Positions 20,836-30,714 of a stretch of 30,986 nucleotides of DNA are shown one piece after another; within the stretch, counting starts at the first letter, position 1, and each line of letters starts with the position of its first letter. The notes below the pieces were generated by a model. The model was not told the origin of the DNA, made no database searches, and saw only the letters and a program-made list of their open reading frames with translations. The position numbers and the translations under genes were made by a program. This DNA comes from a virus: IMG/VR virus record IMGVR_UViG_3300034631_000006, positions 1-30,986 of that record, one strand, 5' to 3'.

Positions 20836-21684
20836 ATGGCCTACGGAACCTGCAAGCTGACGAAATCGACCGGGAAGCTCGTCCGATCGCACCTACTTCC
20901 CAAGGCGCTGACAAAGACACCGGAACCCGGGCTCGCACGCGCCGAAGGGTTCGACCTCGGCCGACCGGTCAGGCGCTTCGATGGATGGTACGACTCCGGC
21001 ATTGTGACCCGTAAGGGCGAGGACATCCTGTCCCGCTATGACGACTTCGCTATCAAGGAGCTTCGGAGACTCAAGCTGGTATGGAGCGGCTGGCAGGATC
21101 CCGGGGAACTTGATGGCATCGATCTGTTGCAGCCTGACGGCTCTGCCGGGTTGGGGAGGCTTGCCGCGCCAGGCGCGAAGCGGCTGCGCCTCTTCTTCCT
21201 CTCTCTGCTCTGGCGAGCAGCTGTTACAGATCTCGTCGGCTACCGGGTTCCCATGGATGGGGATCGCCTAGAAGAGCTGACCCGCATGGTCGCCGAGGGA
21301 GACCCGGAACCGCTTTCCTTTTTTCCCGTAACTCTGACCCAGTTGACGACGAAGGGACCCTGGCACAACGCGGGGCCTCGTCTGTTGACCAAGAAGTACC
21401 CGTCTGAGGAACCTAATGCTGATGTTGATGTAGATTTTTATCGTTTCTACCTCGAGGGGCTCATCGCCCACATCGATGACGACCGAACCGATGCCATCGC
21501 CTCCCGTTTCGGGAGTTACGCCCTTGGGAGCGGAGAAGAGATCATTGCTTTGACGCGACCATATGAGGGGTCGCACCAAGCCGAATGGCTGGAAGTCCTC
21601 ATGCTAAACAGTCTCGAAAACCACGCGGATGTGGTGAACCGCATCTTTCGTATGGATCGAGAAGTTAGTACCAGACGCCCTTGA
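20836..21684 (+). CDS. Unknown + strand accessory protein with SHLLPKA motif
   Basis: 282 residues from ATG 20836; longer readings extend into terS and are not supported. The N-terminus reads G-T-C-K-L-T, then V-R-S-H-L-L-P-K-A-L-T, recalling HNH/treble-clef proteins that carry a C-x-x and S-H-I-I-P motif. W-Y-D-S-G-I-V-T and G-E-D-I-L-S-R-Y-D-D follow. The middle is helical and the last part acidic (A-D-V-D-V-D-F-Y). Codon use is less GC-biased (GAT GTT GAT GTA) than in neighbours. Its orientation opposes the operon and its end overlaps the HNH gene by 20 bp. Cargo, perhaps defence or exclusion, is inference; I know of no assigned function. Confidence 0.68.
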   Translation: MAYGTCKLTKSTGKLVRSHLLPKALTKTPEPGLARAEGFDLGRPVRRFDGWYDSGIVTRKGEDILSRYDDFAIKELRRLKLVWSGWQDPGELDGIDLLQPDGSAGLGRLAAPGAKRLRLFFLSLLWRAAVTDLVGYRVPMDGDRLEELTRMVAEGDPEPLSFFPVTLTQLTTKGPWHNAGPRLLTKKYPSEEPNADVDVDFYRFYLEGLIAHIDDDRTDAIASRFGSYALGSGEEIIALTRPYEGSHQAEWLEVLMLNSLENHADVVNRIFRMDREVSTRRP

Positions 21685-22127: not shown

Positions 22128-22174
22128 TCAAGGCATGTGCACCTAACCTTAGTGTGCATGAAGGATTCGCGCGT

Positions 22175-22834
22175 ATGGCCAATCAGATAGTGCTTGACCG
22201 ACTGATCAGCATTCAGCGGCAGTTGATGGCCATACATGATGGCAATGCCGCGATGTCGGCGAGCTCAAGGGGTACAGAGCGCGAGACCTTCATAGGCGGT
22301 TTCCTTTCAAAGGTCCTTCCGCCGGTGTTCCGCTTTGGGAGCGGAGATGCAACTGACGCGAACGGCAACAGAAGCGGACAGCTGGACGTAGTCATCGAAT
22401 ATCCATTCGGGCCTTCGCTTCCTGCCGTGGGGCAAGATGCCATCCGATTGTACCTGGCTGAGACGGTAGCTGCAGTTGTCGAGGTGAAGTCAGATATATC
22501 CGGCCAATGGCAAGAAGCGTTGGCTACCGCTCAAAAGCTAGCAAAGCTCTCAAGACGTTTCCGCGTGACTATGAGCATGGGGCCACCACCGACACACGCC
22601 GTGCCGCTTTTTGCGGTCGGCTATCGCGGATGGAAGACAATAGAGACGCTACAGGAGAAGCTGCAGGAGAACCCCGAAGTCCGCGGAATTCTTGTCCTTC
22701 AGCACCAGTTGTTTGTCGGCGGAGGGGTTATAGCGAGAGGCCCCGCCGCCCTCTGGGCGTTCATTTGCGTCCTTCATGAATCGACCAACTCACTAGCATC
22801 GGCCTCAACCGATCCTCTCGCTTATGTCGAATAA
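22175..22834 (+). CDS. DUF6602-like (PD-(D/E)XK-fold) protein, + strand cargo
   Basis: 219 residues from ATG 22175 (MANQIVLDRL), with AAGGA nine bases upstream; a GTG at 22154 is the only alternative. Helical start, R-E-T-F-I-G-G-F-L-S-K-V-L-P near 35, then F-G-S-G-D-A-T-D, S-G-Q-L-D-V-V-I near 72 and A-A-V-V-E-V-K-S-D near 101. The D ... E-V-K spacing is the PD-(D/E)XK nuclease core, matching the DUF6602 family. It stands alone against the operon, in AT-richer sequence, so it looks acquired. A role in exclusion or DNA processing is inference. Confidence 0.72.
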   Translation: MANQIVLDRLISIQRQLMAIHDGNAAMSASSRGTERETFIGGFLSKVLPPVFRFGSGDATDANGNRSGQLDVVIEYPFGPSLPAVGQDAIRLYLAETVAAVVEVKSDISGQWQEALATAQKLAKLSRRFRVTMSMGPPPTHAVPLFAVGYRGWKTIETLQEKLQENPEVRGILVLQHQLFVGGGVIARGPAALWAFICVLHESTNSLASASTDPLAYVE

Positions 22835-26284: not shown

Positions 26285-26442
26285 GCGATCCTCCGTATTT
26301 CGGTGATAACCCCGTCACCCTTTGGCCGCGGGATCCGATACGCAGTTTCCATCGCTGCCTTGCGGATCAGCGCCGGCAGTGCGTCGATCACGTTCGACGG
26401 TCGAGCCGCAGCCCAGGAGAACAGATCAAGCTGCTCGGCCAT
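26281..26442 (-). CDS. Small QLDLF-motif protein
   Basis: 53 residues from ATG 26442, with GGAGG six bases upstream, overlapping the end of the replication gene by 17 bases. Starts M-A-E-Q-L-D-L-F-S-W. A Q-L-x-L-F peptide is the known clamp-binding (beta sliding clamp) signature. Here it stands at the N-terminus of a tiny basic protein encoded right after the initiator, so a link to the host clamp is possible. This is inference from the motif only. Confidence 0.6.
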   Translation of the reverse strand: MAEQLDLFSWAAARPSNVIDALPALIRKAAMETAYRIPRPKGDGVITEIRRIA

Positions 26443-27202
26443 TGCGAACCTCCGTCTTCCACTCGGCAATATCGCAGGGGAACAACGCTTCTCGGATCAG
26501 CCGCTGCAGGGCCGTCTCCATCCGATGCGCAGGAACGCCCATCTGGACGAGGAACTTGCGGTTCTCCTCCAGCGACGGCTTCGGCTCGAACGCGAATTCC
26601 TGTTCGTCGAAAGCCTCGCGCGTGAGCACTAACCTTTCATCGTCGGAGCGGATCTTGTTTTGTCCTGATCCTAGGTCCTGGTCCTTTTCCTGATCCTTCT
26701 CCTGGTCCTTATCCTTCTCCTTGCTTCGAAGGGCCTCCGAAGCCCCTTCGAAGCCCCTTCCCAACAAGTGCTCGAAATTCTCCAAACAGAGCGCATCACG
26801 AAGGTTGAATGGCTCCCGGTATCGAGCATAAAAGTCCAGCGTTATCTGGCAGATAGGTAGCTGAGCGAGCTGCTTGGCGACGGCCTGAACCCGGTTGTCT
26901 TTCGGGCTCAGTCGAGGCGCTACCTGCGAGAACGCCATCTCGTGCACCCAAACGATCTCGTTCTCCTCGTCATAGGAGGCCAGACCCCCCTCTATGACCC
27001 TTCGAAGCCCCTTCGAAGCCCCTTCGAAGGGGATACCCAAATCGATCGACAGGTATTGCAGATCGAGCGCGTAGATGCCGATCATCGTCGAGTGCGGACT
27101 AGTCGTCAGATGGTAGTAGACGGCGATCGCAACCGGGTCGCCGCGGAGCTTCTTTATGTCCGTCTGCCAAACGACAGGTGGAATAGCGGCGAACGATCTC
27201 AC
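26426..27202 (-). CDS. Replication initiator-like protein (phage O-like)
   Basis: 258 residues from GTG 27202, AGGAG six bases upstream. The N-terminal part (1-100) is a winged-helix pattern: V-W-Q-T-D-I-K-K-L, Y-Y-H-L-T-T, L-S-I-D-L-G-I and I-W-V-H-E-M-A, seen in phage replisome organisers. A charged low-complexity run (K-D-K-D-Q-E-K-D-Q-E-K-D near 160-172) separates it from a helical C-terminus with no helicase or primase motif. The gene holds two arrays of an 11-bp TTCGAA repeat and a purine tract, as lambda O holds its origin. Function by position and pattern, not proven. Confidence 0.68.
   Translation of the reverse strand: MRSFAAIPPVVWQTDIKKLRGDPVAIAVYYHLTTSPHSTMIGIYALDLQYLSIDLGIPFEGASKGLRRVIEGGLASYDEENEIVWVHEMAFSQVAPRLSPKDNRVQAVAKQLAQLPICQITLDFYARYREPFNLRDALCLENFEHLLGRGFEGASEALRSKEKDKDQEKDQEKDQDLGSGQNKIRSDDERLVLTREAFDEQEFAFEPKPSLEENRKFLVQMGVPAHRMETALQRLIREALFPCDIAEWKTEVRNGRAA
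26655..26723 (-). other. Strand-biased purine tract beside repeat array
   Basis: About 69 bases that are nearly all pyrimidine on the + strand (purine on the - strand), made of imperfect 12-base units such as GGATCAGGAAAA. It encodes the K-D-Q-E repeats. It directly adjoins the inner TTCGAA array, as the easily melted tract does in the lambda origin. Confidence 0.55.
26725..26760. repeat. 11-bp repeat array, inner (candidate origin iterons)
   Basis: Units spaced exactly 11 bp start at 26725 (TTCGAAGGGCC), 26736 (TCCGAAGCCCC) and 26747 (TTCGAAGCCCC), with a decayed fourth at 26758 (TTCCC). They lie inside the replication gene and encode G-F-E-G-A-S-E-A-L-R. The phase is shared with the outer array. 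Confidence 0.72.
27001..27033. repeat. 11-bp repeat array, outer (candidate origin iterons)
   Basis: Three units, TTCGAAGCCCC, start at 27001, 27012 and 27023 with an exact 11-bp step; the last ends GGGG instead. They encode P-F-E-G-A-S-K-G-L-R-R in the initiator gene. Same unit as the inner array 254 bp away. Confidence 0.75.
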
Positions 27203-28681: not shown

Positions 28682-28873
28682 TCACGCCGCGGGCTCCATG
28701 AAGAAGGCGACGAGCCTGCTGCGCTCGATCACCCACCGGCCGCCGACCTTGCGGGCTGGCAGCTCTCCGGTATTGCAGAGATGGAAAGTCACGCGCGGGG
28801 TCCGCCCGATGATGTTCGCGATCGCTTCCACACCCCAGACGAGATCAAGTGTCCCGCTGTCATCCTTGGTCAT
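28682..28873 (-). CDS. Small HTH/excisionase-like DNA-binding protein
   Basis: 63 residues, ATG at 28873. Pattern V-W-G-V-E-A-I-A-N-I-I-G-R-T-P-R-V-T-F-H-L-C-N-T-G near 12-36, then L-P-A-R-K-V-G-G-R-W-V-I near 38-49: the winged helix of AlpA/excisionase-type proteins. First gene of the leftward early operon, opposite the integrase operon, so Cro-like or Xis-like roles both fit. The three-site operator lies just upstream. Confidence 0.72.
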   Translation of the reverse strand: MTKDDSGTLDLVWGVEAIANIIGRTPRVTFHLCNTGELPARKVGGRWVIERSRLVAFFMEPAA

Positions 28874-28894: not shown

Positions 28895-28958
28895 TAAGAC
28901 GGTGATAGGGGTACTACGGTCTTAGGATTGACGTCAAGCGTCACCTAAGACAGTGCTA
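28895..28958. promoter_or_regulatory. Three-copy operator in the lysogeny switch
   Basis: Three 13-bp sites with consensus TAAGACnGTrnTA: 28895-28907 (+), 28912-28924 (-) and 28946-28958 (+). The inner two overlap a perfect inverted repeat GTCTTAGG/CCTAAGAC (28919-28926, 28944-28951). Between them lies TTGACGTCAA (28928-28937). Probably bound by the ribbon-helix-helix protein at 28982 or by the HTH protein at 28682. Confidence 0.7.
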
Positions 28959-28981: not shown

Positions 28982-29410
28982 ATGGCGAAGGCAGGTCGCG
29001 GTGCCGATCAGTACATGGTCCGCTTTCCGCGGGGACTTCGCGACCGCGTGAAGGCAGCGGCGGCGAGCAACGGCCGTTCGATGAACGAGGAGATTGTCCG
29101 GCTCCTGGAGCGGACCTATCCCGAGCCATGGCCTCTCGACGTCCGACTTCACGAGTTGAGCGTTCTAATGGGGGCCCTTCGGAAGGTGCGGGGACACGAG
29201 CGAGCCCTCGACGCGATCACGGGCAGCATTCTGGAAACCGCGGAGGCTATAGCAGCGGGCCATGTTCCGGAGATCGATGAGGAGACGAGGAATAAGGTCC
29301 GTGAGGAGCTTGAGGCGTGGCATCGAGCTAGAGCGGAGAAGGAACAGGACCGTTACGAATCGTTCGACTATCCTCGCGGCGATCTTGATGACGAGAGCGA
29401 CAACGCTTGA
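28982..29410 (+). CDS. Arc-type ribbon-helix-helix DNA-binding regulator
   Basis: 142 residues, ATG at 28982, with a GAGG site upstream. The N-terminal 45 residues are an Arc-like RHH domain: Q-Y-M-V-R-F-P-R-G-L-R-D-R-V-K (10-24) and S-M-N-E-E-I-V-R-L-L-E-R (33-44). An elongated helical, charged C-terminal region follows. Coupled to the integrase by a TTGA overlap. Given the operator next door and no CI/LexA-like gene in the window, it is the best candidate for the lysogeny repressor. Inference. Confidence 0.8.
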   Translation: MAKAGRGADQYMVRFPRGLRDRVKAAAASNGRSMNEEIVRLLERTYPEPWPLDVRLHELSVLMGALRKVRGHERALDAITGSILETAEAIAAGHVPEIDEETRNKVREELEAWHRARAEKEQDRYESFDYPRGDLDDESDNA

Positions 29411-30603
29411 GCGTCCGTAAGCGCACGTGGACGACGCCGAAGGGCGAGGCCAAGACGGCCTGGGTCGTTGATTATGTCGACGGCACCGGCAAGCGGCGGC
29501 TGAAATCCTTCAAGTTGAAGAAGGCTGCTGACGCCTTCGCTGCCACGGCGCACGTCGAGGTGCGGGACGGCACGCACACCGCCGATCGTGCGAGCGCAAC
29601 CGTCGCCGAAGCGGGCAAGTTCTGGATCACCAGCGGCGTCGCGGCCGGGCTCGAGCGAGCGACGATCAAGGATTACGAGGCGCAGCTTCGGCTTCACATC
29701 GTCCCGTTCATCGGTGCGGCCCGGCTGTCCACGCTATCGATCGCCAAGGTGCGGGCATTCGAGGACGAGCTGCGCAACGCGGGTCGGTCGCCAGCCATGA
29801 CGAAGAAGGTGCTGGTCACGCTCGGCTCGCTCATCGCAGATGCGCAGGAGCGCGGCCTCGTCTCCCGCAACATCGTCAGGGACATGAAGGCGCGGCGAGG
29901 ATCCGGTGAAACTCGGCAGATGCAGCGCCACAGAGGCCGTCTGAAGATCGGCGCGGACATTCCAACCGTTGCGGACGTCAAGTCGCTTTTGGGGGCTGTG
30001 TCGGGACGCTGGCGGCCCCTGGTCCTAGTAGCGACCTTCTGCGGGCTCCGAGCCTCTGAGCTACGCGGCCTGCGCTGGAGCGACGTAGACTTCGACAAGC
30101 GAGAGGTGCGGGTCCATCAGCGCGCTGATCGCTTCAACGACATCGGCAGTCCGAAGTCGATCTCGGGCGAGCGCGTCGTGCCAGCGCCACCGATGGTGAT
30201 CAATGCGCTGCGGGAATGGAAGCTGGCTGCCCCACCGTCCGATCTGGATCTCGTCTTCGCCAACGGATCGGGGAAGGTCGAGACGCTCGGGAACATCCTG
30301 CGTCGCGGTCTACACCCGGCATGGATCGCGGCGGGTGTAGTCGTGGACACCGGCGAGGTCGACGCCAAGGGCAAGCCTGTCCTGGTGCCGCGCTACACCG
30401 GCATGCACTGCCTGCGGCATTGGTTCGCCTCGTGGTGCGTGAACCGGAAGGAGGATGGCGGGCTCGCGCTTTCACCGAAGATTGTTCAGGAGCGCATGGG
30501 GCACTCGACTATCGCGATGACCATGGACACCTATGGGCACCTCTTCCCGAGGGCGGACGATGCCGACGAGATGGCGGCCGCTGAGCGGGCCTTCCTTGCG
30601 TGA
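29407..30603 (+). CDS. int: Tyrosine-family integrase
   Basis: 398 residues from a TTG at 29407 (TTGA overlap with the RHH gene). The N-terminal arm-binding region (1-60) precedes a SAM-like core-binding domain (65-165). The catalytic domain holds R215 (G-L-R-A-S-E-L), K250, H334 and R337 (M-H-C-L-R-H-W), H366 (M-G-H-S) and nucleophile Y376 (D-T-Y-G-H). All active residues are present, so it is likely functional. It ends 66 bases from the tRNA-Arg fragment, as expected for an attR-side integrase. Confidence 0.92.
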   Translation: MSVRKRTWTTPKGEAKTAWVVDYVDGTGKRRLKSFKLKKAADAFAATAHVEVRDGTHTADRASATVAEAGKFWITSGVAAGLERATIKDYEAQLRLHIVPFIGAARLSTLSIAKVRAFEDELRNAGRSPAMTKKVLVTLGSLIADAQERGLVSRNIVRDMKARRGSGETRQMQRHRGRLKIGADIPTVADVKSLLGAVSGRWRPLVLVATFCGLRASELRGLRWSDVDFDKREVRVHQRADRFNDIGSPKSISGERVVPAPPMVINALREWKLAAPPSDLDLVFANGSGKVETLGNILRRGLHPAWIAAGVVVDTGEVDAKGKPVLVPRYTGMHCLRHWFASWCVNRKEDGGLALSPKIVQERMGHSTIAMTMDTYGHLFPRADDADEMAAAERAFLA

Positions 30604-30658: not shown

Positions 30659-30669
30659 ATTGTAGCCGG

Positions 30670-30714
30670 TTCCTAATCTGAGGGTCACTGGTTCAAATCC
30701 AGTCGGGATCACCA
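30670..30714 (+). other. attR: 3' fragment of tRNA-Arg(CCT)
   Basis: Reads as the 3' half of a tRNA: anticodon loop TTCCTAA (30670-30676; anticodon CCT), 3' stem TCTGA, variable loop, T-arm ACTGG-TTCAAAT-CCAGT, acceptor strand CGGGATC, discriminator A and encoded CCA (30712-30714). The expected 5' half is absent: the sequence to the left does not pair. So this is a tRNA-derived attachment remnant, with the complete gene at attL, left of the window. Confidence 0.8.

Follow-up and report, generated by a model that had tools for sequence, protein, structure and literature searches.

The 108-bp gap between two divergent genes of a viral DNA fragment most likely governs the lysogeny of a prophage, whose host is most likely an alphaproteobacterium. 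(Here, the window is the full 30,986-base virus record, which lacks its left end and has one apparent prophage end.) Three 13-bp dyads in the gap are very probably bound by the product of the rightward gene, an Arc-family ribbon-helix-helix (RHH) protein. The best reading, to which we assign a probability of about 0.78, is a switch in the style of phage P2, in which an operon for repressor and integrase faces a cox-like gene. The repressor would be the Arc/Mnt-type RHH protein, acting as the primary lysogeny repressor in place of one of the lambda type. The parts, Arc/Mnt operators and the P2 C-int/Cox layout, are already known; their combination was not found in the literature searched.

Genes flanking the gap

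The gap separates a leftward HTH_17 gene (28682-28873, minus strand; start at 28873) from a rightward RHH gene (28982-29410, plus strand; start at 28982). The preliminary description had named an Arc-type RHH protein and a small HTH protein as neighbors, and profile searches agree. The 142-residue RHH protein, with contact strand DQYMVRFP, matches Pfam Arc (PF03869; E 2.3e-12; 47 bits against a cut-off of 20.4). Its best solved relatives by phmmer are AmrZ, Arc, and Mnt chains, with AmrZ (3qoq) closest (E 2.7e-6). The AlphaFold model of this protein (pLDDT 74.6) contains helices only; because the strand is not formed in the monomer, the model was not used for a fold search.

The leftward early operon begins with the gene for the 63-residue HTH_17 protein (Pfam HTH_17, E 2.6e-6), which has the look of a winged helix of the excisionase/Cox type. 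Its AlphaFold2 model (pLDDT 82.5) matches the RdfS excisionase (Z 6.9), Pukovnik Xis (5.8), and P2 Cox (4lhf; 5.6). Further matches are the Xis proteins of Tn916 and lambda; every Z is below 8, which denotes a common shared fold only. The protein would act at sequences other than the 13-bp sites. Its profile matched none of the sequences of solved structures, and no relatives were found among 50,697 cultured phage records.

Downstream of the RHH gene is a tyrosine integrase gene (29407-30603, plus strand; Phage_integrase, E 1.6e-13), whose TTG start codon overlaps the stop codon of the RHH gene; cotranscription of the two genes is therefore likely. Beyond it, a sequence resembling the 3' half of a tRNA, followed by flanking DNA (30661-30712, plus strand), is a likely attachment-site remnant; ARAGORN found no complete tRNA.

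Three dyads and a palindrome

The motif TAAGACnGTrnTA matches the window exactly three times, always inside the gap, where dinucleotide shuffles lead one to expect 0.00 matches; allowing two mismatches adds a single match in the window, which is chance level. Site 1 (TAAGACGGTGATA, 28895-28907) and site 3 (TAAGACAGTGCTA, 28946-28958) match on the plus strand, and site 2 (TACTACGGTCTTA, 28912-28924; reverse strand TAAGACCGTAGTA) on the minus strand. All three fit TAnnAC-N-GTnnTA; every 13-mer is a dyad in its own right, centered on an N (TAnnACnGTnnTA). The three sites of the preliminary description stand, but their assignment as two forward and one reverse accordingly carries little meaning; for the same reason, a reading of the sites as oriented direct or inverted repeats was rejected. 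The spacing from site 1 to site 2 is 17 and is conserved; that from site 2 to site 3 is 34 in the window and 34-37 in most related loci.

Two further elements had been described. The 8-bp perfect inverted repeat is present (GTCTTAGG, 28919-28926; CCTAAGAC, 28944-28951) and arises from sites 2 and 3 together with their flanks. The 10-bp palindrome, TTGACGTCAA (28928-28937), also is present, between sites 2 and 3, but is better read as the -35 boxes, overlapping and back to back, of two putative divergent promoters than as an operator. Of 40 related loci, 28 have a TTG..CAA-type element in the interval from site 2 to site 3. With assumed spacers of 17 bp, one -10 region would lie at the margin of site 2 and the other within site 3. 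A sigma-70 consensus scan of the region revealed no canonical full promoter and nothing above chance.

A family of related loci

With the RHH and HTH_17 proteins as queries, searches yielded 40 nonredundant divergent RHH/HTH_17 pairs. Each gap was searched for its best three 13-bp central-N dyads, without use of the contact residues, and compared with Markov nulls. The triple-dyad score reached at least 30 in 87.5% of the gaps versus 0.75% of the nulls, with the proviso that the automatic search took one spurious member in a few loci (L006, L067, L072, and L140); read by eye, the L006 gap has a clean third site. At its own threshold, every locus has three sites (L140 has four, all in the gap) and none elsewhere in its examined DNA. 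The closest relative, a prophage of Consotaella salsifontis whose RHH protein is 62% identical, keeps TAAGACGGTCGTA, TACTACCGTATTA, and TAAGACAGTGCTA at spacings of 17 and 34.

The RHH/HTH_17 module thus is present in dozens of prophages, many of them from alphaproteobacteria, and the suggestion of an uncommon immunity design falls. We somewhat favor the broader view that these loci represent an unrecognized and widespread immunity class of alphaproteobacterial prophages, in which the RHH protein would be the only primary repressor and would have an excisionase-like HTH_17 protein as its partner; it would have diversified into many immunity groups whose operators may be predicted from a few amino-terminal residues.

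Among 50 loci fetched through the HTH_17 protein alone, 38 have a divergent Arc-type RHH gene, and in seven others the neighbor resembles another RHH type, as judged by reading its sequence. In L122, L134, and L142, and in L124, L139, L153, and L163, other RHH-like proteins (CopG-like TLTIRLD, or the RRVYVLP type) replace the Arc gene upstream of HTH_17. Loci with these non-Arc neighbors showed triple dyads at null level only, and those with DLHFRLRIP variants of Arc (L120, L129, and L158) showed no clean triple.

A proposed switch in the style of P2

In the proposed switch, the RHH protein would bind the three dyads, each made of two 6-bp halves around a central N; binding most likely involves pairs of dimers that insert a DQYMVR β-ribbon. 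Sites 1 and 2 would cover the predicted leftward early promoter, which drives the HTH_17 gene and the early operon, and site 3 would cover the putative -10 region of the rightward RHH-int promoter. During lysogeny, the RHH protein would silence the early operon and also adjust its own production. A drop in RHH activity would allow synthesis of the HTH_17 protein, which, like P2 Cox or Pf XisF4, would be expected to promote excision and oppose the lysogenic promoter.

In P2, repressor and int are read together, with a divergent cox-like gene opposite. The likeness to this C/Cox switch (also that of phage 186) lies in the arrangement: RHH gene and integrase gene are directly adjacent on one strand, facing the cox-like gene, in 33 of the 40 loci, and several others end at a contig edge. 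The differences are that the repressor candidate is an RHH protein rather than an HTH C protein, and that there are three dyad operators. P2 Cox itself serves both as excisionase and as repressor of the repressor-gene promoter (PMC7379572).

RHH proteins have been tied to lysogeny in other viruses. PflM (Mnt-domain/DUF5447) of Pf phages, encoded beside xisF, maintains lysogeny, and its deletion results in complete prophage excision (PMC11112994). The pairing of a Mnt-type gene with an excisionase gene resembles the module described here. In Pf, however, both genes lie on one strand, a separate repressor gene is divergent, and the phage is filamentous; a search of Pf phage PfAC08 for three dyads found no three-site cluster. 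F55 of SSV1 is an RHH protein that maintains the lysogenic or carrier state (PMC9608457), but the virus is archaeal, the protein has 55 residues, and its 11-nt site (ATAGATAGAGT) occurs at several promoters.

Primary or secondary repressor

The alternative that fares best accepts binding of the RHH protein to the sites but confines its role to the integrase/excisionase pair or to a secondary circuit like immI of P22; primary immunity would come from a CI-type repressor encoded in the unsequenced left part. We consider this unlikely. The preliminary description saw no lambda CI- or LexA-like repressor in the window, and indeed the record contains neither a Peptidase_S24 nor an HTH_3 domain, a result that, with the left end missing, holds for this stretch only. 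(A reading of the sites as LexA or CI operators was rejected, as no such protein was found.) Related records extend this result: S24 above cut-off is absent from 41 of 44 virus records bearing the Arc module, and the three exceptions all are contigs of at least 78 kb that may hold other DNA. The 45-kb L013 contig, which by ORF reading runs from integrase through terminase and tail genes to endolysin, has neither S24 nor HTH_3, and the S24 genes of the Consotaella genome are on contigs other than that of the prophage. Conversely, L009 has the HTH_17 gene and lacks the RHH gene, and it encodes a 273-residue frame with sub-cut-off S24 and weak HTH_3 matches. In addition, one record (G015) has a single sub-threshold S24 match, and some HTH_3 match occurs in 10 of 25 records.

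Arc and Mnt of P22 illustrate the secondary role: they act in a secondary region around the antirepressor gene, beside the primary C2 repressor. The window protein shares with them membership of the Arc family, 13-bp 6-N-6 dyads with the geometry of Arc/Mnt/AmrZ operators, and probable contact through the amino-terminal arm and alternate β-strand residues. Unlike in P22, though, its gene is joined to the integrase gene, has three sites, and faces an excisionase-like gene rather than an antirepressor gene; the immI feature of an antirepressor under an RHH pair is absent from the locus, whose flanking genes are HTH_17 and integrase.

The cultured Paracoccus phage vB_PyeM_Pyei1 speaks for a secondary role. 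This phage has an S24 CI repressor (PMC6536676). Its genome (L171, 2687-3384) also contains a divergent pair of Arc genes that has three operators of the TAGCGA type and adjoins a Rha/KilAC antirepressor gene; this immI-like region is unusually placed, within the cluster of tail genes. Such a cluster thus can serve secondary immunity, as does immI of P22. Pf phages likewise keep a separate repressor, Pf4r, beside PflM. Because of Pyei1 and the missing left end, the RHH protein as primary repressor is held with less confidence than its binding to the sites.

Two relatives found through tail proteins (L165 and L166) extend 6-8 kb further into the missing left part and contain no A1-type RHH gene, and so do not settle the switch of the window phage. 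The L013 contig (L173-L175) combines P2-like tail genes with an early region that it shares with the window phage. The tail genes of the latter look different: exchange of early and late modules has taken place.

Which protein reads the sites

Far less probable is that the 13-bp sites are repeats of the arm or Cox type, close to the integrase gene, to which the Xis/Cox-like HTH_17 protein binds. The excisionase-class winged helix of this protein lends the idea some appeal, since members of the class bind to repeats and control divergent promoters (PMC7379572, PMC11963761). Covariation across the family rejects it. Operator distance follows distance in the RHH β-strand (Mantel r 0.34, p 0.0002; partial 0.36), a correlation that linkage between operator and strand codons might inflate, yet none is seen at RHH residue 11 or with HTH_17, whose gene start is equally near. 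With the HTH_17 protein as a whole, r is 0.02 (p 0.31), and with the rest of the RHH protein, -0.05. In a scan by column (p ≤ 0.005), only RHH residues 4-10 and 12 are associated with the operator: the amino-terminal arm and the outward-facing residues of the β-strand. No association is seen at the inward-facing residue 11, in either helix, or in any of the 41 HTH_17 columns. Likewise, L020 and L013 have HTH_17 cores that are 93% identical but differ in strand and in operator (TATCCA versus TAAGAC). Finally, direct repeats are the usual binding sites of excisionases, whereas these sites are dyads. Of the two-protein switch originally proposed, the RHH protein remains as the likely binder; a role for the HTH protein at the 13-bp sites does not, since the sites track the RHH strand.

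A reading of the three sites as repeats that arose by chance, or as elements of promoters with no repressor, is scarcely credible: the de novo three-dyad score of the window alone is moderately unusual, with 5 of 300 nulls reaching it, but the cluster is decisive because it is conserved in relatives such as the Consotaella prophage, with the position and spacing of all three sites kept in L004, L013, and L125, and because 40 loci show column-specific covariation.

Strand and operator pairs

These comparisons strongly support the view that operator sequence depends on the RHH contact residues, and that specificity can be read from a few amino acids. The main set contains at least nine half-site classes: TAaGAC, TAGCAC, TAGCGA/TAGTGA, CAGCAC, AATyAC, TATCCA/TACCCA, TGGCTA, GTGCAA, and CACCAA. 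Strand QYM[VL]R goes with TAaGAC; QFMxR with TAGCAC or TAGCGA; EQAMIR with CAGCAC; QFPLR with AATyAC; QYLLR and QFQLR with TATCCA; QYQLR with TACCCA; KYVxR with TGGCTA; ERFQxR with GTGCAA; and xxTLRLP with CACCAA.

The KYVxR subgroup connects this set to a solved complex. AmrZ, the closest solved relative, reads GGC-N5-GCC through strand residues K18, V20, and R22 (PMC3325190), and KYVxR strands pair with TGGCTAnTAGCCA, in agreement with both its K-V-R strand and its site. AmrZ differs in being a host regulator of Pseudomonas virulence genes rather than a phage switch.

Held-out loci add further pairs. Pyei1 p53 (DQFMLRLP) has three TAGCGA-type sites; the P22-like Mnt gene of Salmonella phage P6 has GACCACGGTGGTC just upstream; and APFGLRM proteins are accompanied by CTACAG three times. 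CTACAG and AACCAC are half-site classes additional to the main set.

The paired strands and operators are the most useful product of the analysis. They form a natural data set for the β-ribbon recognition code known originally from Arc, Mnt, and AmrZ. The RHH module also predicts homo- and heteroimmunity groups from sequence.

Other features of the window

Two arrays of an 11-bp unit (CTTCGAAGCCC / CCCTTCGAAGC), at 26724-26760 and 26998-27029, lie inside a DnaD-like replication gene (26426-27202, minus strand); they resemble the iterons of an origin embedded in a replication gene, of which lambda O is an example. Two rightward ORFs (20844-21684 and 22154-22834), for a DUF6602 protein and a possible second cargo gene, run against their leftward neighbors. 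They sit between the early and late genes, resembling accessory or defense cargo.
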